Assembly (NCBI RefSeq): GCF_916618915.1
Contig: NZ_CAKAKE010000001.1
Coordinates: 2,525,001-2,589,000, forward strand
Direction of reading: 5' to 3'
DNA length: 64,000 bases
Origin: Stenotrophomonas sp. Marseille-Q4652
GTDB lineage: Bacteria > Pseudomonadota > Gammaproteobacteria > Xanthomonadales > Xanthomonadaceae
In this document: one piece after another, positions 49,179-61,085 of the stretch
How the letters are laid out: every line of letters begins with the position of its first letter
Numbering within the stretch: position 1 is the first letter of the stretch
The notes under the pieces: generated by a model
The model's database searches: none
What the model was told of the DNA's origin: nothing
Seen by the model: the letters and a program-made list of their open reading frames with translations, nothing else
Translations under genes and position numbers: made by a program

Positions 49179-50972
49179 CTACTTGATCTCTGGTATGTCT
49201 TGAGAGGGCATCCTCAGCTCGAGAGACCTGATCGCATTCCAACATTCGTCCTTCTTCGCCCACTCCGAAACCATGCGGCCGTTCGCGGACCTGTGGATCG
49301 CCTGGTTAACCTCCACCGCCCACACACGGATCTGCGCTTTGAAGGCCTCAGAGATGTCCTGCTGATCCCAGATCCGGTCAAGCTCGATGCGATCCGCGTA
49401 AGTGCGGGAAATTATCGAAACCAGATAGATCGCGATGTTTCCCTGGAAGGCGGGAAACATCGGACGGACAAGTGAGTGGACCCGCTTGAAGAAGATCACC
49501 TTGGCGATCATGCGCTTGTATCCCTGCACGTCGGGAATGACCTCTTCGCCCTGCTCTTCCCGGCTGCGGATATCGTCCATGAAGCGTGCGAAGTTCTTCT
49601 GACCACCCAGGCTCGCCAAGTCCGGGCGGCCGTCCCATGCATTCAAGAATTTCGCCAGATCGGTCTTGGTCAACCGGCGAGCGGGAGGAACCACCACAGT
49701 CTTGAGGTTCCGGTACTTGGCAGGCGTGGTTCCTTCGCGAACCAGCATCGTGGTGTAGCTGCCGGCAGCCCGCTCATAGAACCATCGCCCCACGCCATCC
49801 GGGCAGTAGACCCTGTTGGATATCTTCTCCAGCTCGACATGGAACGGCGCATTGGCCGAAAGATCGGACTGCTTCACAGCATTCTGGCTGTTCGCATACC
49901 GCGAGATATCCGAGATCATCGCCTCCTCGGCCGCAGGATCGTCCGCTTTCAGGACGACCACCTTTGCCGGCACGCGGACCCGTCCCAGGTCGGTCTCCGG
50001 GTGTTTCTTCTTGGTGAAGTAGATGGAGGCGGTTGTCTGTCCGCCGTTGACGATCTGCATGCCTTTCAGCCAGGCGATACCCGGGCCACCGTCCCCGGTC
50101 TTTCCCAGGCGGACCTCGTCCGCGACGATGACGATGCCATTGTTGTAGGCAACGAACTTCTCTGGATCCGAGCGCAGTGTCGACTGGATTCCCTTATTCA
50201 CCTTGCCAGTGGCGGTCAGAAAGGACCGGACGTTCGCCTCAAGCAGCCGCGCACCGTACTTCTCATAGAGGAACCTGAGCACTTCGCCCGGCAGTACGGT
50301 CATCGCATAGTCGTATGTGTCCGCTTCACCGTGGATATAGACACATGGGAGCGGACCGCCTGCGACATCGTCGAAGTTCACGACGAGCTCGTCACGCGGC
50401 TTCCCCTCGGACCAGTGGCGGTGGAGCCGCTCGATGTCCATCACCTCGAGTTTCACGGTCTTTCCGCGGATCTCCCGGGCCTTGAAGTTCTTGGTCTTGA
50501 CCTGGCCATCAGTCAGGACATAGATCCGGATTTCATCAAGTCCCGCGTAACCCTTCTCGATATGGAGTGCCAGCTCATGCGCTTCGTTGGCAGGGTCCAC
50601 GGACGCTGCCAACTTGCCCTGTGCTGACAGAGAAAGGAAGCGCAGACACTGCTCAGCAGCCTTCTGCGTCACCGAATCTGCAACAGGCTGCAACGTGTCG
50701 GCGTCGAGGTACACGCTTACGAACAGGTCCAGGCGGTCCCCCTCCGAGGAAACGGAGTAGCCACTGAGCTTGATGTTCGCGGTGCCCACCTTGGTGTCGT
50801 AGTGGCAGACCTCCGGCTCGTGGGTCATACCAACTTCTTCCATGTGGCGCATCACGATCTCGGAGAAGACCAGCTCCGGATAGGGATAGGCAGTGCCGGA
50901 TACGCTCATCCGCTCGGCGATCTCACCGGCAACTTCCGCACGCGTCTGAGCAAGAAATTCAATCAGTTCCAT
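49179..50972 (-). CDS. AIPR-family (abortive infection phage resistance) protein
   Basis: A 597-residue AIPR protein. The family core is the stretch from residue 240 to 316: ARLLEANVRSFL, VNKGIQSTLRSDP, FVAYNNGIVI and QIVNGGQTTASIY. The N-terminal 200 residues contain a segment resembling a nuclease-like fold (GDRLDLFVSVYL). AIPR domains are widespread in phage-resistance and restriction-type operons, but their biochemistry is not settled. Its start overlaps the upstream nuclease gene by ten bases. It is the last gene of the five-gene coupled block. Confidence 0.9.
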   Translation of the reverse strand: MELIEFLAQTRAEVAGEIAERMSVSGTAYPYPELVFSEIVMRHMEEVGMTHEPEVCHYDTKVGTANIKLSGYSVSSEGDRLDLFVSVYLDADTLQPVADSVTQKAAEQCLRFLSLSAQGKLAASVDPANEAHELALHIEKGYAGLDEIRIYVLTDGQVKTKNFKAREIRGKTVKLEVMDIERLHRHWSEGKPRDELVVNFDDVAGGPLPCVYIHGEADTYDYAMTVLPGEVLRFLYEKYGARLLEANVRSFLTATGKVNKGIQSTLRSDPEKFVAYNNGIVIVADEVRLGKTGDGGPGIAWLKGMQIVNGGQTTASIYFTKKKHPETDLGRVRVPAKVVVLKADDPAAEEAMISDISRYANSQNAVKQSDLSANAPFHVELEKISNRVYCPDGVGRWFYERAAGSYTTMLVREGTTPAKYRNLKTVVVPPARRLTKTDLAKFLNAWDGRPDLASLGGQKNFARFMDDIRSREEQGEEVIPDVQGYKRMIAKVIFFKRVHSLVRPMFPAFQGNIAIYLVSIISRTYADRIELDRIWDQQDISEAFKAQIRVWAVEVNQAIHRSANGRMVSEWAKKDECWNAIRSLELRMPSQDIPEIK

Positions 50973-51991
50973 GTTTTGCCGTCCCCAAGACTTTCAATAA
51001 TTGCTCCAAACTTCGAAGCGATCTCAGGTATCACTTCAAGATCCAGCGCGTACTTGGCGCGCTGGACGCCCGCCGGAACATTCCCGCTGACCAGTCTGGG
51101 CGAGTCGGACCGGACCAGCTTGTAGCCGATGTGCTGCAAGAAGAAGCGACGGCTGTACTTTTCAGCCATCGAGTCGACATATCCAGCCGAGATCAGCTTG
51201 TCCTTCAAGGCCAGAGGACTTCCTGTCTCCTCCGCCAGGACGGCTTCCAGCTCAGCGCATATCTCCGGAAGTGTCCGGCCGTCTGGTGACAGGGAAAGGC
51301 GGACCGCAGCCACGTAAAGCGGTTGGCGAAGGGAATCATCCAGCTGCTCAAGGCTTCCTATTTCGGCGACAAATCCCCCGGGGGAAACTGTCGACTTGAC
51401 TTCCAGTGCCCCCGTTCCAATCAGGTAGTCCTGAAGGCCGTCCTCGGGACCAGCCCAGTAGCTGACAGCGTCAGCGGCCGGCACGCCGCTGCCTATCATG
51501 TCGCGCAATACGACCAGCTCACCGAACAGGCCAAGCTCCGCTTCCGGACTGAGAACCCCGAAGCGATCCCGCTTCATGAAGTCCTGCCACGCACGGATCC
51601 GGCCCAGCATGGCAGCCCGGATCCGCTCACCGTCGTAGCCGCCGACCTGCGAGAACAGGGCGAGCAGATCCGCCGCCATCATTGCAAAGAGTGCCGGCTG
51701 GCCAGCGCTGGTCCGGCTAAGCGCGAACCAGGTCCAGTCACCAGCCGAATCCACAGGGTCGATGTAGGCGACGCTGAAGCCCTGCCCGCGTGGCAGGTCT
51801 GCGTCTGAGCCGACACGCAGCCCCCTCGTTCCGATGATCAGCGATTCCTCCCGACCCGGAAACCATCTTCCCGCCTGCACGACGCCATTTTTGCCACGGA
51901 CAACGTCGATCACTCTCCAGCCCTGACCGCCCTCCATTCCCGCCAGAGCACGCCATGCGGATGCCAGCTGCTCTTGGTCACTCGGCACCAT
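50963..51991 (-). CDS. PD-(D/E)XK nuclease family protein (DUF4420-like)
   Basis: A 342-residue predicted restriction-type nuclease. The catalytic motif reads D188 in EDGLQDYL, then E197-V-K199 in GALEVKST, matching D-x8-ExK; E158 in LGLFGELVVL is likely the additional acidic residue. ATG at 51991 is chosen because GGGAG lies seven bases upstream, while the longer start at 52012 lacks one. It overlaps the Z1 gene by 14 bases and AIPR by ten. In this operon type it should supply DNA cleavage, with the Z1 and GHKL proteins providing ATP-dependent control. Confidence 0.87.
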   Translation of the reverse strand: MVPSDQEQLASAWRALAGMEGGQGWRVIDVVRGKNGVVQAGRWFPGREESLIIGTRGLRVGSDADLPRGQGFSVAYIDPVDSAGDWTWFALSRTSAGQPALFAMMAADLLALFSQVGGYDGERIRAAMLGRIRAWQDFMKRDRFGVLSPEAELGLFGELVVLRDMIGSGVPAADAVSYWAGPEDGLQDYLIGTGALEVKSTVSPGGFVAEIGSLEQLDDSLRQPLYVAAVRLSLSPDGRTLPEICAELEAVLAEETGSPLALKDKLISAGYVDSMAEKYSRRFFLQHIGYKLVRSDSPRLVSGNVPAGVQRAKYALDLEVIPEIASKFGAIIESLGDGKTWN

Positions 51992-54845
51992 AGTCCTGCT
52001 CCCACGCGACATTGTTGATCTTGTAATCGATCTTCACCCCCGATTCGCTCTCAGGAAAACTGACACCGAAAGCAACCAGGCCAGGTGTGGCTTCATCCAG
52101 CTTTAAACGTGACTCGGTGGGATCAAGCACATAAAGCACAAGGAGACCTGCCTCGGGATGGGCTTCCACGCCGTCGCCACCGCAGCCCTTGACTCGCCGG
52201 ATCGAGGGCCCGCTCGGAACTTCTGGAGTGCCGGCCTTCTTTGCCCTTGCCCAGGCCTCGGCGGTCAGCTGAAGCGCTGCGTTCCACTGGCGCTCATCGA
52301 TATCAATTGCCTCATCCTTCGGATCAAGCAGGACACCTATCGAGTGCCGGTCCTCGAACTGGCCCTCCTCCTTGCGCCTGACCATGTTCACTGAAATCCC
52401 AGGCGCAAGTTCGCTCGGTCTCCCATCCCTGATACCAAGCAGCGCCACATTCCAATCCTTCAACTCCCCGGATCCGACCATTGCATCAATGAAGTCCGCC
52501 AAGGCAATGCTGTTTACCCTGTGGGATGCCTCACTGGTGCGATACCCGCGCAGGAAATCGACCACGGACGAGCTGGGAACCCTGCGCCAGAGATGTCCAT
52601 ACCATTGATACTTGGAGGGGCCGTATCCCAGGCATGGATTCACCTCCCCAGCTCTGCCAAGAGACTCGATGAAGGCGGATGCGGACTTGAAGTTTCTTCC
52701 CAGAACGCCGCCATCCCGAGGCAGCGAAACGGTTTGCATCAGCTGTCCACTGAATGAAAGCCGCAAGGTTCTTGCGCTTCGCATCTTGAGCTGCGAGGTC
52801 ACAAGCAGTTCCGTGTGGGACTGGATCTTGAGGCCGTACTCCCTGGGCGTGGCCCCGGAACTTGCCATCAGATCAAACTCCTCGCGCAGCTCCGCCGCCG
52901 CATCGGTAATGTGGCGGAACCAGCGAACAAGGTCTGGAGAGGTGTAGATGCGCCCAAGGTCCAGATATCCGGGTCTGTAGCCGAACCAGCGCCCCATCTG
53001 CATGAGTGTGTCGTACATCTTGGACGCACGCAGGAAGTAGCTCGTGCACAAACCCTCCAGGGTCAAGCCACGCGCCAGCTTGTCACCACCGACCGCGATG
53101 ACCTTCAGACCCTTTTCCCTGGCTTCCTCGTAGTCGAGAACGTCCTTCGCCGTGCCATTTATCATCCGCACGTCAATGTCATGGATGACATCCGGGAGAA
53201 CCGTCAGGATCTCCTCCCAGCTCGGGTCGTGGTCCGGAAGGTCGCCCAGACCGGCGGCCCGGACCTGCCGCGTCGCGGGGATGAAGTCCGCTTCCCACAA
53301 TGCCTGAAGCTGCTCAAGCAGCTCCTCGTGCTCAATCCCACGCGTCACCCGCTGGCGGACGCTTCTCATGTACTCCGACACCTGCTGGTGTACAGCGGCC
53401 TGCACCGAGTTGAACCTCGTAACATGGACCAGCATGGAGCTGTGCTGACTTCCCTGGCCCCGGAGTTGGCGCACGGCACAGGCAATCAGGAATGAGTGCA
53501 ACGCCTCCCTGAGACTGGGCGGAAGATCTTCGGACTTCGAGTAGAGAGGCACATGTGTGGGCTTGTGCTTGGCAGGCATCCACCCGGACTCGCCGCTGCA
53601 GAAGTCCTCCACCTCTTTGACAAGTGGCAACTCCCCATCTCTTCCGTCTGGACCCGGCTGGCCGAACACCCGTGACGGTCCGACGTAGTTTGAAGGGGCA
53701 GCAAGGTTCTGGATGAACGCCGACGGGAACAGGTCAGGACCTTCCGACCTGGTCCTGCCACGTTCATGGATGAAAATGTTGGCGAACGGTGTCGCGGTGT
53801 ACCCCACATAGGCGGCACGGGAGAAGGAATTCAGGATCCGCCGTATCAGTTTGTTGATGGTCGTCGGCTGATGCTCGGGGTCTGGATTCCCTTCCGCATC
53901 CACAACGGTTTCGCCAGTGTCGACCGACGCGTTGTCTGCTTCATCATCAATGATGAGAAGCGGAAACTTGGTCACTCTCTTGGTAACCCTTGGCAAGGGA
54001 TCGTTCTTGTCGTTGTCGATCTCTTCCGCGGAAAGGGGGAGATCCGCAACATGGTTCTGGATCCACTTCAGCAGCTGGACCAGGACCGACTTGTTCTTCT
54101 TTACAACGAACAACCATGGTCGCTGCTCGGGAGAGATCGCAAGATGTGTGGCCGCGCGCCTGTTGAAGTCGCCATTGTTGGCGCGTGTCGTTGCACAGTT
54201 GGGGTTGATCGAATGATCCGTGTCGATATTCCCGACCCCGATGCGCCGTTTGACATTCGAGACGCCACTGGTCTCGTAACCCAGGAACCCCTCCTCAAGG
54301 CGGATCTGCGTCTGCGAGCGGAGGTTGTTGTGCAGGCCGGCGAGGACAATGATCACCTTGTACTGCGCATCCGCAGCCTTGCAGATGAGGCCGGTGTAGT
54401 TTGCGGTCTTGCCGGACTGCACGTGCCCCACAACAAGGCCGCGGCGGTCCCATGTTCCGGGACGCAGGGGGTCCTCCAGCTGCCCGAGGATCCGGTCGGT
54501 GGACTTGTCCAGTGCGTCAACCGCCGTCCACGAGAGCTTCTTCTCCAGCATCTCCCGATAGCGCTGCCAGTAGCGCCAGTTTCTCTTCCGCTGCGCATCC
54601 AGCCAGGCCACGTGGTCCTTGGCGTCCACCAGTGAACTGTCTTCGCCGATCCAGATACTGAAACGCCGGATCAGCTCGTCAGTCACCGCATTCCGGTCCA
54701 GACCAACCGCCCATCTTGGGTTCATCCGCAGAACCAGATCCATCTTCTCCGAGATAAGGGCTGGCGTGATTGCCGGCCTGTCATCCTCGCCCAGAAGGAG
54801 CTCCTGGGTGATCTTGATGACGCTAGCTGCACTGGATTCACTCAT
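51978..54845 (-). CDS. Z1-domain ATPase (helicase-like)
   Basis: A 955-residue protein of the Z1 type, a P-loop ATPase related to superfamily 2 helicases. Walker A is GHVQSGKT (140-147), Walker B LLIIDDEAD (296-304), motif III GYTATPFANI (348-357), motif V AVGGDKLARGLTLEGL and motif VI MQMGRWFGYRPGY with the arginine fingers. N- and C-terminal regions are unassigned. Z1 proteins co-occur with MutL/MORC-like ATPases, PD-(D/E)XK nucleases and AIPR in restriction-type operons and are thought to translocate on DNA. ATGA overlap with the GHKL gene. Confidence 0.93.
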   Translation of the reverse strand: MSESSAASVIKITQELLLGEDDRPAITPALISEKMDLVLRMNPRWAVGLDRNAVTDELIRRFSIWIGEDSSLVDAKDHVAWLDAQRKRNWRYWQRYREMLEKKLSWTAVDALDKSTDRILGQLEDPLRPGTWDRRGLVVGHVQSGKTANYTGLICKAADAQYKVIIVLAGLHNNLRSQTQIRLEEGFLGYETSGVSNVKRRIGVGNIDTDHSINPNCATTRANNGDFNRRAATHLAISPEQRPWLFVVKKNKSVLVQLLKWIQNHVADLPLSAEEIDNDKNDPLPRVTKRVTKFPLLIIDDEADNASVDTGETVVDAEGNPDPEHQPTTINKLIRRILNSFSRAAYVGYTATPFANIFIHERGRTRSEGPDLFPSAFIQNLAAPSNYVGPSRVFGQPGPDGRDGELPLVKEVEDFCSGESGWMPAKHKPTHVPLYSKSEDLPPSLREALHSFLIACAVRQLRGQGSQHSSMLVHVTRFNSVQAAVHQQVSEYMRSVRQRVTRGIEHEELLEQLQALWEADFIPATRQVRAAGLGDLPDHDPSWEEILTVLPDVIHDIDVRMINGTAKDVLDYEEAREKGLKVIAVGGDKLARGLTLEGLCTSYFLRASKMYDTLMQMGRWFGYRPGYLDLGRIYTSPDLVRWFRHITDAAAELREEFDLMASSGATPREYGLKIQSHTELLVTSQLKMRSARTLRLSFSGQLMQTVSLPRDGGVLGRNFKSASAFIESLGRAGEVNPCLGYGPSKYQWYGHLWRRVPSSSVVDFLRGYRTSEASHRVNSIALADFIDAMVGSGELKDWNVALLGIRDGRPSELAPGISVNMVRRKEEGQFEDRHSIGVLLDPKDEAIDIDERQWNAALQLTAEAWARAKKAGTPEVPSGPSIRRVKGCGGDGVEAHPEAGLLVLYVLDPTESRLKLDEATPGLVAFGVSFPESESGVKIDYKINNVAWEQDYGAE

Positions 54846-56368
54846 TGCGTTGTTCCGCTCGGATCATGGGAGGAAACCTCGTCCGGAAGGCTTGCCACCA
54901 GATCCGGATGAAGATCGAAAGGTTCTGTCGCGAGAAGCTGCCTGCGGGCAAGTTCCGGAGACATCCCCTTGAGGGTTATGAGGTTGCGATAGAAGACAAG
55001 CAGGACCTGCATCACCTCGGAAGAAGGTGTGGAGGTGAAGCCGGCCCTTGCCTGTTCACCTGATTCGGCCGTATCCAGCCAGATGCGCTGGACAGGAATC
55101 GTCTCCTCAAGGACTCGGAGCATTGCTTCGACACGCTCCGCGGTATCCCCCTCCCTCTCCAGCAGTGGCTGCACGGCCGGATGGGAGCGGTCTACGAGGT
55201 ACTTCCTTCCAGACGTGAGGTCCTTCGAGATCCAGACAGGAGCAACCTCCTCACTGCGACCCACGGAGGTATTGGACTGGGCGCGGTGCAGGAATACCCT
55301 CCTCGCCCGCTCCCGCGCATCCTCGGCAAGCCGCGTCAGCTGGTCGCGCAATCTCACAGGTGGGTGCGCGGTCGACTTCCGTATGTCGATCTTCCAGTCC
55401 GTATCCGAGGAGTTCGGTATGTCGAGCCGGATGCGGGCCAGCCTGTGGGACTCGTCCTTCGACCATGAGCGACCACGTCCCAAGCCAAGCCAGCTGCCCG
55501 GAACCAGAAGCCGCCGCCCCCGGTACACATAGAACCCCTGCTGGGACGACCAGCCATCCGGCCCGCCAGCCTCGAGAAACTCCTTGTCTGTCATCCGATC
55601 CTTGTGCGGAAGCACATGGGTACGGGCGTAGACCTTCCAGCCCGCTGCACCGATCGGTACCTCTGGTGAGCGCCACGTTGCCGGATGCCAGGTCAGGAAC
55701 GGATCCCATGCCCGGACCTTCCGACCATTGACGCGCAGCTCAACCGAAGAGCCACTTCCGTCAAGGAACCGATGGAAAACCATGCCCAGATGGCGTTCAA
55801 CCCGATCGATCAGATCCAGGAAGTCCTGATCCTTGAAGCCGCTCGAGACGATCCTGTCCAGGACCTCCCACAGGACGATCGTTCCGTGCTCCTTCTGATC
55901 AAGAGATGCGATCCTGTCCCTGGAGCCGTTGTCCGGGCCCTCCAGAAGAAGCCAGTCCCCTCCGGCCTCATTCGCCAGGAAGTCCAGATCCCAGCGCAGG
56001 CAGCTGCTGTTGCGATACCTGCGGCTCGCAACTGTCAGACGTCGGCACTGCGAGAAGGACGCGGTCTTGAGTCCCATTCCGAATCTGCCAAGGTCGGAAG
56101 AGCTCCGCTCCACAAGTGGATTCCGTTCGGCGAGTCTCATCGCCTGATCGAGCTCGGGATCGGTCATTCCATGACCATCGTCGCCAATGGCGATCCAGCT
56201 CTCGCCGCCATTCCAGTGGAAGTCGACGTCAATCCTCTTCGCGCCTGCGGATATGCTGTTGTCGATGAGGTCGGCAAGGGCCGACTCGGTCGTATAGCCA
56301 AGCCCTCTCAGGGCCTCGATCGTCCCATCGGCCCTCGGCGGCGCACTCCTTGTCATGTATCCCTTCAT
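54842..56368 (-). CDS. GHKL ATPase, MutL/MORC-like
   Basis: A 508-residue GHKL (Hsp90/MutL/histidine-kinase fold) ATPase. The N box is [14 protein letters not shown] with N37, the G1 box IGDDGHGM (61-68) and the G2 box [14 protein letters not shown] (93-106). The [21 protein letters not shown] segment is a transducer-like region with the lysine that contacts the gamma-phosphate. ATP-driven dimerisation of such proteins acts as a DNA clamp in MutL and MORC. Its ATG overlaps the sigma-factor gene (ATGA) and its stop overlaps Z1, so its translation is tied to both. Confidence 0.92.
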
Positions 56369-58479
56369 TCCACAGTCGCTCCGTCGGGCTTCTTCTGGCT
56401 CAACTTGTAGGCAGCCAGAACTTCACTGCGTGCCGGATGCCTCAACACGCTTAGAGCCTTGGCCTCGATCTGCCTGATCCGCTCACGCGTCACGTTGAAC
56501 AGGCGTCCCACCTCTTCGAGGGTCTTCTCGTTGCCATCAATGAGCCCGAAGCGGTGACAGATCACAGCCGCCTGCTTTTCTGAAAGATCCGACACGCAGG
56601 CCCGTACCGTCTTGACCAGCCCCCATTCCATCGCCACGTCCTCAGGCCCCGGACACTGGTCAGGGAAGGACATGGCCTCCTCGTACACCCCTGTTCCATC
56701 GTCGTAGCTTCCGGGCTCGGAGACCAGTGCAAGGGCCTTCCGCACCTCGGCGACGCTCATCTGGCTCTTGCGGGCGAGGTTCTCTACGGCGACGTCCGCG
56801 GCACGATCCGCACCCTCCGCCCTTGCAACAGCGTCCAGCTTTGTCCGCTTCTCAAGCATGTGGACCGGAATCCTGATCATCCGCCCCTTGTCCGCGATCG
56901 CCCGGGTGATCGCCTGGCGGATCCACCAGGTGCCATATGTTGAGAACTTCGTGCCTCGCGAGAAGTCGAACTTGTCGATGCCACGCATGAGTCCCAGGCA
57001 CCCCTCCTGGATCAGATCCGTCCTGGGCAGCGGCGACCAGTAGTACTTGTTGGCGATCGATGCAACGAGCCGCAGATTGGCCTCGACCATCTCGCTCGTC
57101 AGATGGTCAAGCCTTGCTACCGCCGCATCCAGTTGTGCGCAATGGTTCCCCGCTGTTTCCACCGCGGACCTGATCCATCTGATGCCCGACCCTGTCAGCT
57201 GAAGATCCTGGATCAGTACGACAAGGACATGCTCGCGCTCGGAACCATCAGTTAGGGCGCCCGCCCGTTCTACTATTTCCCGGATGGACCCATGGATTGC
57301 CCTGAACTGCTCGGCATCGCCGCCTGCAGCGTCTGGTTCCCCGTCTCCATCCCGCTCCTCGTCATCTGACAAGGCTTCCGGAGCAGTGGCTGCCGGGGAC
57401 GCAAACTCCTCCGACGCCTGCGTGGATGCATCCATACGACTGATGCTTCCAACCCGCAGCTCCCCTGAAGCAATGGCCTTCTCCATTCCAAGGAGCGCAT
57501 CCAGAGCTTCAGGGTCTCTGGCTATTGCACGGCATCCATCTGCGATAGCCGCCGCGATCAGGCGGCCGATCCGCTGTTCTCCGTCACGATCCAGGATTTC
57601 CGATCGGCCAAGTGCCCGGTTCAGATGGAAGCCCGGGTCATTTCGGCGCGAATCCATCTCGACCATATAACGGTCGGCCACCTCGAGCAGGTCCTCGTCG
57701 ACCTCGTCAAGGTCTTCGATATCGGACTCCGAGCACCACTGCTCATCCTCATCCGCGACAACGACTCCAAGGTCACCGAGAAGCTGCACGAGATGGCGAT
57801 ACATGTCGCCGTCGGATGAGCCCTCCATCCTCCATGCGAGCCTGCGTATGCGCCCAGCCCGGACAAGTCCTTCTGATTGCCCATCCAGTAGCATGGAAGC
57901 GAAGTGGAGCCGTCCATGTTCATCGAATACCGTCCGCCGTGCCTCCAGCTCCTCCACGTCCGGGAGCTCGATACGCAGATCGGACCAGTCGGCGTCGGAA
58001 TCACGTATCCGGAGCGTGGTCAACGCTGCCTGGGACTGGGATACGGAGTTCCGGAGGATCGTGTCATCCTCGGGAACCTTCACATCCTCTTCCACCTCCC
58101 AGCCACCAAACTCCGGAGGTGTCTCCTCTTCTTCGAAGCCCAGACCAGGCTCCACCTTGGGCTGCGATCCGTGGTTCCGCAAAAGGTCTGCAAGCGCGGA
58201 AAAACCTCCACGCTGCGCAATCGCTGCGGCGTCGAGTCCCTCGTCATCGGTGGCCATATGATTGGCGCCATGCGCCAGCAGCAGATGGCACAGCTCAACA
58301 TGCCCCTTCGCTGCGGCCAGCATCAGCAGCGTCCGCCCATGCTGATCCCTGGCCTCGGTACTGCCGCCACCATCGAGATGGGTCTGCACAAGCTCGACGC
58401 TGCCCTGCGAGATCGCAAGGCGCAGAAGGGGCCTGATGACAGGTTGGGATGATCTATGGTCCATTGGTCCTACGTCCAT
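56365..58479 (-). CDS. Ankyrin-repeat / RpoD-like sigma-70 factor fusion
   Basis: A 704-residue protein. Residues 14-104 hold about three ankyrin repeats ([28 protein letters not shown] is the clearest; key GRTLLMLAA). Residues 130-215 are unassigned; 227-245 and 266-310 resemble sigma regions 1.1 and 1.2. Region 2 (466-540) has [26 protein letters not shown] and [14 protein letters not shown]; region 3 follows; region 4 (632-690) has [26 protein letters not shown]-contacting residues of regions 2.4 and 4.2 are essentially those of housekeeping sigma-70. Such a fusion inside a restriction operon is unusual. The start region is duplicated (ATG at 58479 or 58464). Confidence 0.9.
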
Positions 58480-58488
58480 TGGTCCTAC
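58459..58488 (-). repeat. 15-bp tandem duplication containing ribosome site and start codon
   Basis: Two exact, adjacent copies of a 15-bp unit; on the minus strand each reads GTAGGACCAATGGAC. Every copy supplies TAGGA and an ATG four bases later in the same frame, so the sigma-factor gene has two equivalent start sites five codons apart. Copy-number change by slippage would stay in frame. Confidence 0.9.
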
Positions 58489-58496
58489 CAGATCAT

Positions 58497-58513
58497 CCCG
58501 GCAGCAAGCCGGG
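58497..58513 (-). promoter_or_regulatory. Small hairpin between methyltransferase and sigma gene
   Basis: A 6-bp stem CCCGGC/GCCGGG with a 5-base loop in the 72-base gap after the methyltransferase stop. It has no T tract. It could attenuate, not end, read-through into the sigma-factor block, or be irrelevant. No sigma-70 promoter stands out in this gap. Confidence 0.3.
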
Positions 58514-58551
58514 TGCAGAGCTGTTCCAGCGTTCCTTCCCCGTATACATCG

Positions 58552-60147
58552 TCATTCCCCAAGGATCGCCCAGACAACCTTCGCAATCTCACGGGCGATC
58601 ATTGGTGGCACCGCGTTGCCCACCTGCACGTACTGCTGGGTCCTGTTGCCGAGGAATAGATAGTCATCCGGGAACGTCTGGAGCCGCGCGGCCTCGCGGA
58701 CCGTCAGACTCCGGCACTGCCGCTGGTCCCAGTGGATGAAGGCGTGGCCGTCCTTGGAAAGGTGGCTCGTGACCGTGTTCGCCACCCGGTCGCGCCGCTG
58801 GACGCGGAAGCGGTCCGCGAACGCACCGCTTGTCCAGTTCTCGTGGGCTGGCGCAAGTTGTCGCGGGAAATCGTCGCTTGAAGGGGAGCGGCCCTTGGCC
58901 TTGGCGAAGGCGGCACAGAACATGTAGCGCCCCAGGTCGGACTGCATGTGTCCGCGTGTCTCGTGGTTGAGAACGACGGTCTGCCCGGCACTCCGCAGCT
59001 TCTCCGTGAACCAGTTGCCCCCATCACCGTAATCCGCCGAGCTGCGCGGCAACGCGTGCGCTGGCTTCAGCCTTGCAAGCCGGGCGGACACGTCGACCAT
59101 GTTGGAGCCGAGCAGTCTGACAATCCTGTCCCGTTCGGCCTCCATCGCCCTGCGCCACAGCCCGGCGTCATCCGCCTGCCGACTCAGACCACTGCGGAGC
59201 TTTGGCAGGCCGCCCAAGGCTGTCTCGGCCGAGACCTCCGGAACCTTGGGGATGCCCGGGATCTTCGCAATCCTCGGATGAAGGAGGTCCTCGCGGACGC
59301 CCATGATGATGACGCGATGGCGCGCCTGCGGGATACCGTGATCCTCGCAGCGGATGAGGAATGCTGCAGGATCTCCCTCGACAAGCGCGGATGTACGCTC
59401 CGTACCTTCGTCCACATGGATCGGAAGAAGGACATAACGTCCCTCCCTGCCCGTCGCCTGGGAAGATCCGGTCAGTGCGACACGCGGATCGGAGAGGTCA
59501 CGCATGATGGCCGTGAACATCTCATTGTCGCCAACCTTCGACGTCAGGATGCCCTTCACGTTCTCCATGATGAAGACGGCAGGTGAGAATTCCGCGAGGA
59601 TTCCGAGGTACTGCCGGTAGAGGAAGTGCTTGGTTGTGCCCTTGGTCCTGAATCCCCTCACGTTCTGCTGGCGCACCCGCCCAACCACGGAATAGGCCTG
59701 ACAGGGTGGACCACCGATCAGGATCAGCTCGTCGAACTGGTCCTTCACCTTCGAAATCCTGTCAATCAGGATGCTGTTGTCCTTCTCCTCGCCAAGGGTG
59801 AGGTTCAGGGCCTCCTCTTCAGCCTGCCTCCACAGTTCGCTCCACTTCCCGCCGCCGAAATGCACCGAGGGCGGCGCCCCAGTACCCCTCGCAACCTGCT
59901 CAAGATAGGAATAGTAATCCTTCGGAACCTCACCTTCCTGACGGGTCAGAAGGCGGTAGAACGCCCTCAACCGGAGAGTGGCGTGGGCCGATTTCTCCAT
60001 CTCCGCGGATACGGCCAGCTCGAACGGGCGGACGCCCGAGCCCGGGGACGGTTCAAAGCTGCTGAAACCCTCACCCAGCCCACCGGGGCCTGCGAAGATG
60101 TCGATTACTCCGACCGTGTTTCTTTTGCGCTTGGTTGTTGCTAGCAA
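58552..60147 (-). CDS. DNA (cytosine-5) methyltransferase
   Basis: A 531-residue C5-cytosine methyltransferase. Motif I is VIDIFAGPGGLGEGF, motif IV GGPPCQAYS with catalytic C149, motif VI MENVKGIL, motif VIII QARHRVIIMG and motif X VQVGNAVPPMIA. About 110 residues separate motifs I and IV, longer than usual and likely a lineage insert. The target-recognition region lies in the C-terminal 200 residues; the site cannot be read from sequence. TTG is the only usable start before motif I. It should modify the host sites that the downstream system spares. 19 bases separate it from divergent vsr. Confidence 0.92.
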   Translation of the reverse strand: MLATTKRKRNTVGVIDIFAGPGGLGEGFSSFEPSPGSGVRPFELAVSAEMEKSAHATLRLRAFYRLLTRQEGEVPKDYYSYLEQVARGTGAPPSVHFGGGKWSELWRQAEEEALNLTLGEEKDNSILIDRISKVKDQFDELILIGGPPCQAYSVVGRVRQQNVRGFRTKGTTKHFLYRQYLGILAEFSPAVFIMENVKGILTSKVGDNEMFTAIMRDLSDPRVALTGSSQATGREGRYVLLPIHVDEGTERTSALVEGDPAAFLIRCEDHGIPQARHRVIIMGVREDLLHPRIAKIPGIPKVPEVSAETALGGLPKLRSGLSRQADDAGLWRRAMEAERDRIVRLLGSNMVDVSARLARLKPAHALPRSSADYGDGGNWFTEKLRSAGQTVVLNHETRGHMQSDLGRYMFCAAFAKAKGRSPSSDDFPRQLAPAHENWTSGAFADRFRVQRRDRVANTVTSHLSKDGHAFIHWDQRQCRSLTVREAARLQTFPDDYLFLGNRTQQYVQVGNAVPPMIAREIAKVVWAILGE

Positions 60148-60166
60148 GACTTAGGACTCTGACGAT

Positions 60167-60652
60167 ATGGTTGATGTAATGAGCGCCGTTGATCGCTCAG
60201 CATTGATGTCCCGTATCCGGGGCAAGAACACGGCGCCGGAAGTGCGCCTCCGCAAAATTCTCTGGCGAAAGGGCCTCCGCTACCGCCTTCATGGAGCGCG
60301 GCTTCCCGGCAGACCAGACCTGGTGTTCCCGCGCTGGCGCGCGGCGGTGTTCGTGCACGGCTGCTTCTGGCACCGTCACACCGGATGCCCGCTGTTCCGC
60401 CTGCCGAAGACACGGACCGAGTTCTGGGAAGAGAAGCTTCGCCTCAACCAGCAGAGGGACAGCCGCGCTGTCCACGACCTTGTGGAACGGGGCTGGAAGG
60501 TCGCCGTGGCATGGGAATGTGCCATCCGGTCCGCACCGGAGGCGGTGGGCCGGGAACTGGTTGAATGGATAAGGCATGGGGAAGGCAACATCGCAATCGA
60601 GGCCGATGGCACTACGTGCGCGACACGCGCACTCAAGTGCGCCCGTTCCTGA
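60167..60652 (+). CDS. vsr: Very short patch repair endonuclease
   Basis: A 161-residue Vsr endonuclease that nicks next to T:G mismatches left by deamination of 5-methylcytosine. Catalytic Asp is in LPGRPDLVF; the VFVHGCFWHRHTGC segment has the active-site His and zinc-ligand residues, and WECAIR supplies the last zinc Cys. TRTEFWEEKL is conserved. The start MVDVMSAVDRS aligns with known Vsr N-termini. It is the natural partner of the neighbouring methyltransferase. A small inverted repeat GCGCACT/AGTGCGC overlaps its 3' end (60627-60642). Confidence 0.94.
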   Translation: MVDVMSAVDRSALMSRIRGKNTAPEVRLRKILWRKGLRYRLHGARLPGRPDLVFPRWRAAVFVHGCFWHRHTGCPLFRLPKTRTEFWEEKLRLNQQRDSRAVHDLVERGWKVAVAWECAIRSAPEAVGRELVEWIRHGEGNIAIEADGTTCATRALKCARS

Positions 60653-61085
60653 GCATACTGTTGCCACGGATCACCCCCCGTCAGAATATACCGCCACTGC
60701 CCTTCAGGACGATAAGACCCAACGGTCTCAGGGCCGGAGATCTCGCCCGGAATACCGTCTCGCGTCCCCCCAGTCCTAGCTCGCGGCAGAAATCCGGCAG
60801 GCAGCGAGCTGATGAGCGCAGCAGCACGTACGGTACCAGAGCGGTACCGAGGTCTGACCTCTTTTACGGACATCATCGAATCATCGTCTCTGGCCACGGC
60901 ATCCCGATGGCCTGGACAAGCTGGTCACGCCTGACAAGAAGATCATTCTTCCGGACAACCCGGCTTGGCGCTCCCATCCGACGTACCTGAAGTGGCACAA
61001 AGAGCACTGCTTTAAGCGCTGACTTCTAATCTTTGACTGAGCAGTCTCCGGGCCGCATTCACAGCCCGGAGTACGCAATGCTCTC
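60653..61085. pseudogene. Gene-poor right flank with a possible gene remnant
   Basis: 433 bases without a confident gene. A frame ending in TGA at 61020-61022 encodes a protein-like C-terminus: DGLDKLVTPDKKIILPDNPA, then WRSHPTYLKWHKEHCFKR. Its own frame meets a stop about 50 codons upstream; the adjacent frame reads HHRIIVSGHGIP just before, so a one-base frameshift could join them. I do not recognise the family. A CTCCGGGC/GCCCGGAG hairpin (61046-61071) lies past the stop of the M61 peptidase gene and may end its transcript. No att site or transposon end is visible. Confidence 0.35.

Follow-up and report, generated by a model that had tools for sequence, protein, structure and literature searches.

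MzaA of a divergent MZA anti-phage locus in Stenotrophomonas, a predicted ankyrin–sigma factor fusion apparently re-captured from rpoD

MZA is a known anti-phage system (Gao et al. 2020, as cited in the relevant part of PMC9523054), whose genes mzaABCDE are named there to include 'mzaA (a sigma factor)' and whose proteins are modelled in NCBIfam as NF041931–NF041935. Methylase and Vsr genes beside GHKL systems were described in 2008, in a section of PMC2292703. Here we analyse a seven-gene locus in a 64,000-nucleotide stretch of Stenotrophomonas sp. Marseille-Q4652 (contig NZ_CAKAKE010000001.1, positions 2,525,001–2,589,000; hereafter the window) and show that it is a divergent copy of MZA, here accompanied by dcm and vsr. 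A preliminary description of the sequence had proposed an operon of the defence type, akin to the restriction systems associated with MutL/MORC, which our analysis upholds; all seven genes are intact and real and lie inside a low-GC insert. It had also taken the sigma gene to be foreign to described systems, which is wrong, the gene being the mzaA of MZA in NCBIfam, PADLOC and the consulted part of PMC9523054. The surprise at that gene is justified by what MzaA is and by its evolution, not by novelty to the system. What is new here is the nature and evolution of MzaA, a predicted ankyrin–RpoD fusion that appears to have been re-captured; the system itself was already known. Searches of the open-access literature found no published explanation of the sigma factor of MZA, nor any report of an ankyrin-fused or captured sigma factor.

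Profile searches against NCBIfam and PADLOC matched all five core proteins to the MzaA–MzaE family models, with E-values of 2e-45 to 0 (PADLOC) and 4e-100 to 0 (NCBIfam) for MzaB–MzaE, and of 1.8e-60 and 1.2e-137, respectively, for MzaA. The five genes occupy a single strand in the order A-B-C-D-E, and the model matches rule out a novel seven-gene system. None of the five proteins (0/5) reaches its NCBIfam equivalog cut-off, and because of these scores we call the locus a divergent MZA rather than a certified NCBI equivalog. The cut-offs nevertheless look narrow, since that for MzaB is also reached in none of 198 genomes of the window's bacterial family. Apart from MzaA, the locus is an ordinary divergent MZA. 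DISARM was considered and rejected: DrmMII profiles match the methylase only, DrmA, DrmB and DrmC partners were not found, and the Drm profiles gave no match on the other six proteins, the methylase being judged on the best 25 of 54 families.

Among 53 aligned MzaA proteins, ankyrin repeats (Ank_2) are present in 52, sigma region 4 in 53 and region 2 in 52, and MzaA is accordingly predicted to be a set of ankyrin repeats fused to an RpoD-type sigma factor. The linker between the two parts carries an invariant W165 and P173 and a nearly invariant W127 (window numbering). In phmmer comparison with solved structures, amino acids (aa) 453–691 align to RpoD regions 2–4, and aa 219–386 give a weak alignment with its N-terminal portion. 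Residues were surveyed in 45 of 55 MzaA, the main lineage, after six RpoD-like proteins had been set apart and four fragments or extreme rows dropped. Positions in MzaA are given in E. coli numbering, with region boundaries and residue roles assumed accordingly: Q406 and D403 presumably contact polymerase, F427, T429, W433 and W434 act at the -10 element and in melting, and R584, E585, R588 and Q589 contact the -35 element. Equivalents of all of these and of R451 are retained in 45/45 main-lineage proteins and those of Q437 and R441 in 44/45; T440 and Y425 vary. Two plasmid-borne MzaA show the same pattern by eye, with Neorhizobium deviating at two region 2 positions. Because these DNA-reading and polymerase-contact residues are retained, we judge the promoter-reading head to be constrained, even though the whole protein diverges fastest of MzaA–MzaE (mean pair identity 39% versus 48–64% for MzaB–MzaE).

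P0186 (1104 aa), an MzaA-type protein, carries two tandem copies resembling RpoD region 1.1 (Pfam PF03979, by eye) in its N-terminal half, besides ankyrin and sigma parts. Some MzaA outside the window (e.g. L031:10097-12703) extend past region 4 to a GF..PG.G consensus ending; the window protein has no such extension.

The sigma gene is a regular component of one branch of these systems. When MzaB was sought in the 198 family genomes, scores exceeded 700 bits in three (the window's own, G106 and G017), lay at 272–332 bits in nine and at 177–186 in two, and were at most 71 in the other 39 matching genomes. Neighbourhood stretches examined in 13 family genomes contained all seven families in G106 and G017; in the nine mid-scoring genomes six families were present and sigma was not found (L038 with only 2.4 kb upstream covered), and in the two at 177–186 bits the ATPase was accompanied only by Vsr and part of a methylase. 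A scan of species genomes detected 141 relatives and retained 80 loci, and a quick MzaB tree was built with 82 rows (12 of 94 loci omitted: two duplicates, eight that were fragmentary or cut, L042 and L043), the sigma status being unclear in 4 of the 82. Sigma is confined to a single MzaB group of 54 rows (support 96), of which 52 carry it, one lacks it (L096) and one is too short; two changes suffice on this tree, e.g. one gain and one loss, the root not being inferred. Of the two outcomes that the preliminary description had named as refuting it, a one-off sigma insertion is ruled out by the single sigma-bearing clade, and an already described system largely holds in the form of MZA. For 48 of 57 adjacent pairs (two being duplicate loci), the junction between the mzaA and mzaB frames spans at most 35 bases, tight as between co-translated partners. 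Neighbouring arrangements vary: a 596-aa reading frame (L031 596-2386) lies between vsr and dcm of G106, and in Duganella (L092) two dcm/vsr pairs flank one MZA operon.

In some relatives, the sigma module of MzaA appears to have been re-captured more than once from RpoD, either the host's or that of related bacteria, because some MzaA sigma parts lie among RpoD and a single origin is rejected by the trees and by approximately unbiased (AU) tests, on groups named after the trees had been viewed. Host RpoD was obtained from 26 of 29 genomes searched (one dropped, the window genome's own added), and the sigma-domain tree comprised 42 MzaA and 26 RpoD (68 of 79 rows; 3 poor rows and 8 near-copies dropped). 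Ca. Nitrotoga has an MzaA (L095) whose sister is the RpoD of the same host (98/92). The Limnohabitans (L074) and Limnobacter (L079) proteins fall into one group (99/99) that also contains RpoD from Limnohabitans, Variovorax and an unclassified beta-proteobacterium, and this group adjoins the pair formed by L095 and its host RpoD (98/72). MzaA was monophyletic in 0/200 bootstrap trees, and the AU test against one clade gave p 0.0258. The MzaB of L095, L074 and L079 sit inside the sigma group despite their RpoD-like MzaA. In a nearly full-length comparison, the own-host RpoD was the best of 26 for both L095 (67.5%, next 56%) and L074 (69.5%, next 64%).

A search with the L074 N-terminus yielded 260 proteins, considered here through the best 120 of 260. 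When each of 168 MzaA-type sigma domains was compared with its nearest neighbour among 126 RpoD, identity was two-humped, with 103 at 40–54% and 49 at 65–79%, 5 at 80% or above (P0138 among them) and 11 elsewhere. Fifteen proteins sharing the L074 N-terminus form no single sigma clade (AU p 0.0008; tree of 61 rows, MzaA_L079 lost to the length filter), and the metagenomic proteins P0171 and P0151 are placed among other RpoD of the Burkholderiales type (89/82, not starred, bootstrap not settled). L051–L053, which stand beside all RpoD in the 68-row tree, are a possible further re-capture. Two proteins have unusual composition: P0138 (827 aa) joins an MzaA-type N-terminus, within region 2, to a sigma part 92% identical to Methylobacter RpoD and, as a possible recombinant or assembly chimera, was therefore excluded from the trees; P0151 looks mosaic.

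The sigma finger (region 3.2; function taken from part of PMC12445709) is 94% conserved among host RpoD, as against 12–13% identity in the 45 main-lineage MzaA. RpoD-like MzaA keep 86–88% identity in the core, with 21–24% in the finger for six loci and 28% for 54 re-captured proteins, mostly one lineage rather than independent events; a one-residue deletion is frequent. The finger is still present in P0171, the most RpoD-like capture kept (88%), and in P0151 it differs by little beyond the one-residue deletion (82%). Divergence of this kind may signify altered rather than absent initiation. Separately, the Janthinobacterium genome G212 encodes a second RpoD-like protein (L158, 375 bits); in this single example the finger is near-intact by eye, and the part examined shows no ankyrin.

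The remaining genes divide into a coherent core and looser companions. Among complete mzaBCDE loci with a sigma match (n=50, two of which, L110 and L118, have weak, non-adjacent matches, and some stretches being short), Dcm accompanies 39 and Vsr 40, with both in 33 and neither in 4; without sigma (n=27), Dcm is found in 25, Vsr in 20 and neither in 2. Methylase and Vsr are thus the regular companions that the preliminary description had supposed, although their position varies among loci. Pairwise identities from best local alignments in sigma-bearing loci correlate with those of MzaB (Spearman) at 0.83 for MzaC, 0.94 for MzaD (1225 pairs) and 0.92 for MzaE, compared with 0.49 for MzaA, 0.49 for Dcm and 0.67 for Vsr. 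By this measure MzaB–MzaE behave as one evolving unit, and MzaA, Dcm and Vsr look exchangeable, a division that hints at which components sense the threat and which label self. MzaD tracks MzaB better than it tracks Dcm (0.49, 802 pairs), which disfavours MzaD as a sequence-specific partner of Dcm and leaves the earlier idea of the nuclease as the restriction partner of the methylase unsupported. The same values bear on an ordinary restriction–modification explanation, the view of the preliminary description, in which MzaD cleaves sites left unmethylated by Dcm and sigma is an accessory: the frequency of Dcm near loci with and without sigma, and the 2008 account in PMC2292703 of methylase and Vsr beside GHKL systems speak for it, but Dcm and Vsr swap place and partner and are both missing from some sigma loci, and we consider it quite unlikely.

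We tentatively propose instead that MZA is a transcription-coupled defence, in which MzaA would serve as an exchangeable sensor, built of ankyrin repeats and a copy of the housekeeping sigma factor, that is renewed from the rpoD of the host or of related bacteria, its finger being reshaped afterwards; when a phage used the housekeeping polymerase or seized it, this would be read out and passed to the clamp–translocase–nuclease core. The likely role of MzaA is to link MzaB–MzaE either to RNA polymerase at housekeeping promoters or to attack on sigma by a phage, and Dcm methylation would mark self DNA. Several observations weigh against this proposal. The 26 sigma-less rows of the MzaB tree imply that the Mza core does not need sigma everywhere. 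Among 19 main-lineage MzaA, just two, the window's included, have the RpoD of their own host as the nearest, so capture is occasional; the RpoD closest to the Limnobacter protein belongs to Limnohabitans rather than to its own host, a pattern that fits transfer after capture. The AU tests involve long branches as well as groups chosen from the trees, and the placement of L051 shifts between the two trees. In 17 RpoS-type proteins from 16 host genomes, finger identity is 27% and core identity 63%; because RpoS, a working sigma factor, diverges there too, the finger change is not proof of altered initiation, and as proof of dead initiation it is weakened likewise. The retained DNA-reading residues, finally, fit a plain regulatory sigma equally well.

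Such a dedicated regulatory sigma, transcribing the mza operon or a defence regulon once triggered through its ankyrin end, is somewhat unlikely in our estimation; full retention of promoter-reading and polymerase-contact residues in the main lineage agrees with it, and capture of a resident RpoD would suit a match to the local polymerase, but the residues are those of the housekeeping sigma and imply no private promoter, the tight mzaA–mzaB junction is as expected for complex subunits, and sister systems operate without sigma. Alternatively, the RpoD module could be an integrated decoy, baiting phage proteins that seize or displace sigma70, with binding triggering MzaB–MzaE. Replacement by the RpoD of host or kin would keep the bait resembling its true target, MzaA is the fastest-diverging Mza protein, and sigma70 is often targeted by phage proteins, e.g. 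P7 of Xanthomonas phage Xp10 (PMC5053324, in part); yet a pure decoy has no need of the retained DNA-contact residues, and the larger hump of MzaA-type domains is merely 40–54% identical to the nearest RpoD, so that we regard this as unlikely. The RpoD-like modules might also stem from passive mzaA–rpoD gene conversion within one cell, or from chimeric assembly, without selection for likeness to the host sigma. The switch of P0138 within conserved region 2 and the mosaic look of P0151 agree with such an origin, but P0138 is absent from the trees, the contigs that carry L074 and L079 measure 0.48 and 1.05 Mb, mzaBCDE follows immediately downstream in L095, and in L095 and L074 the RpoD-like sequence starts close to the linker and continues through the non-conserved region; this origin seems rather improbable. 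The fusion, the retained promoter-reading head and the apparent repeated re-capture make the sigma factor of MZA a testable question about the sensing or targeting of phage transcription, in which MzaA would parallel the integrated decoys of plant immunity.

Features of the MZA locus and of MzaA in the window (positions of the 64,000-nucleotide stretch)
Feature	Coordinates	Strand	Evidence
mzaE, AIPR protein, 597 aa	49179..50972	-	Pfam AIPR and AIPR_N; PADLOC MzaE 784 bits; NCBIfam MzaE 986 bits (cut-off 1050)
mzaD, DUF4420 PD-(D/E)XK protein, 349 aa	50963..52012	-	Pfam DUF4420; NCBIfam MzaD 335 bits (cut-off 420)
Gene between mzaD and mzaB	51978..54845	-	
mzaB, GHKL (MutL/MORC-like) ATPase, 508 aa	54842..56368	-	Pfam HATPase_c_3; NCBIfam MzaB 737 bits (cut-off 850); MutL and MORC in PDB by sequence
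mzaA, predicted ankyrin and RpoD-type sigma, 704 aa	56365..58479	-	Pfam Ank_2, Sigma70_r2, Sigma70_r4; NCBIfam MzaA 461 bits (cut-off 800)
dcm-type C5 cytosine methylase, 531 aa	58552..60147	-	Pfam DNA_methylase; NCBIfam dcm above cut-off
vsr, very short patch repair endonuclease, 161 aa	60167..60652	+	Pfam Vsr; NCBIfam vsr above cut-off
MzaA ankyrin repeats, about aa 16-108	58156..58434	-	Pfam Ank_2 aa 20-108
Linker specific to the MzaA family (W127, W165, P173), about aa 118-180	57940..58128	-	53 aligned MzaA
MzaA stretch weakly resembling RpoD region 1.1/1.2, about aa 219-345	57445..57825	-	Second phmmer stretch to RpoD chains
MzaA sigma region 2, aa 464-533	56881..57090	-	Pfam; residue alignment
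MzaA sigma finger position, region 3.2, about aa 589-605, strongly diverged	56665..56715	-	Alignment
MzaA sigma region 4, aa 630-681	56437..56592	-	Pfam; R584, E585, R588, Q589 equivalents retained

Beyond vsr, about 430 bp (60653-61085) separate it from a peptidase gene; no gene is assigned there, and the segment is possibly a remnant of the insert's right edge.

Compared with MZA, the window matches the five family models in identical gene order and shares the sigma factor MzaA; it differs by its sub-cut-off scores, by a dcm gene preceding mzaA on the same strand and by a vsr divergent from dcm and mza. It is unlike the Type II system of PMC9523054, a source that places mzaA in only a few of these systems and puts their identity to mzaBCDE at about 20%: the low-identity, mostly sigma-less profile does not apply, since sigma is present, the locus belongs to the sigma-bearing clade, and its MzaB scores 737 bits with the Mza model versus 272–332 bits in the nine same-family loci without detected sigma. 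With the MORC/paraMORC restriction systems the window has in common the GHKL ATPase, a helicase-type ATPase, the cytosine methylase, Vsr and AIPR; it has a sigma factor, a word absent from the portion of the PMC2292703 text examined. Like RpoD (sigma70), MzaA has regions 2 and 4 with their DNA-reading residues and weak traces of 1.1/1.2: equivalents of Q437, T440, R441, R584, E585, R588 and Q589 are all present in the window protein, which is 48% identical to its own genome's RpoD over regions 2–4. It remains under the cut-off of the RpoD C-terminal model (TIGR02393, 354 bits) at 234 bits, versus 405 for the genome's true RpoD, and differs from RpoD by its N-terminal ankyrin repeats and linker and by its diverged finger.
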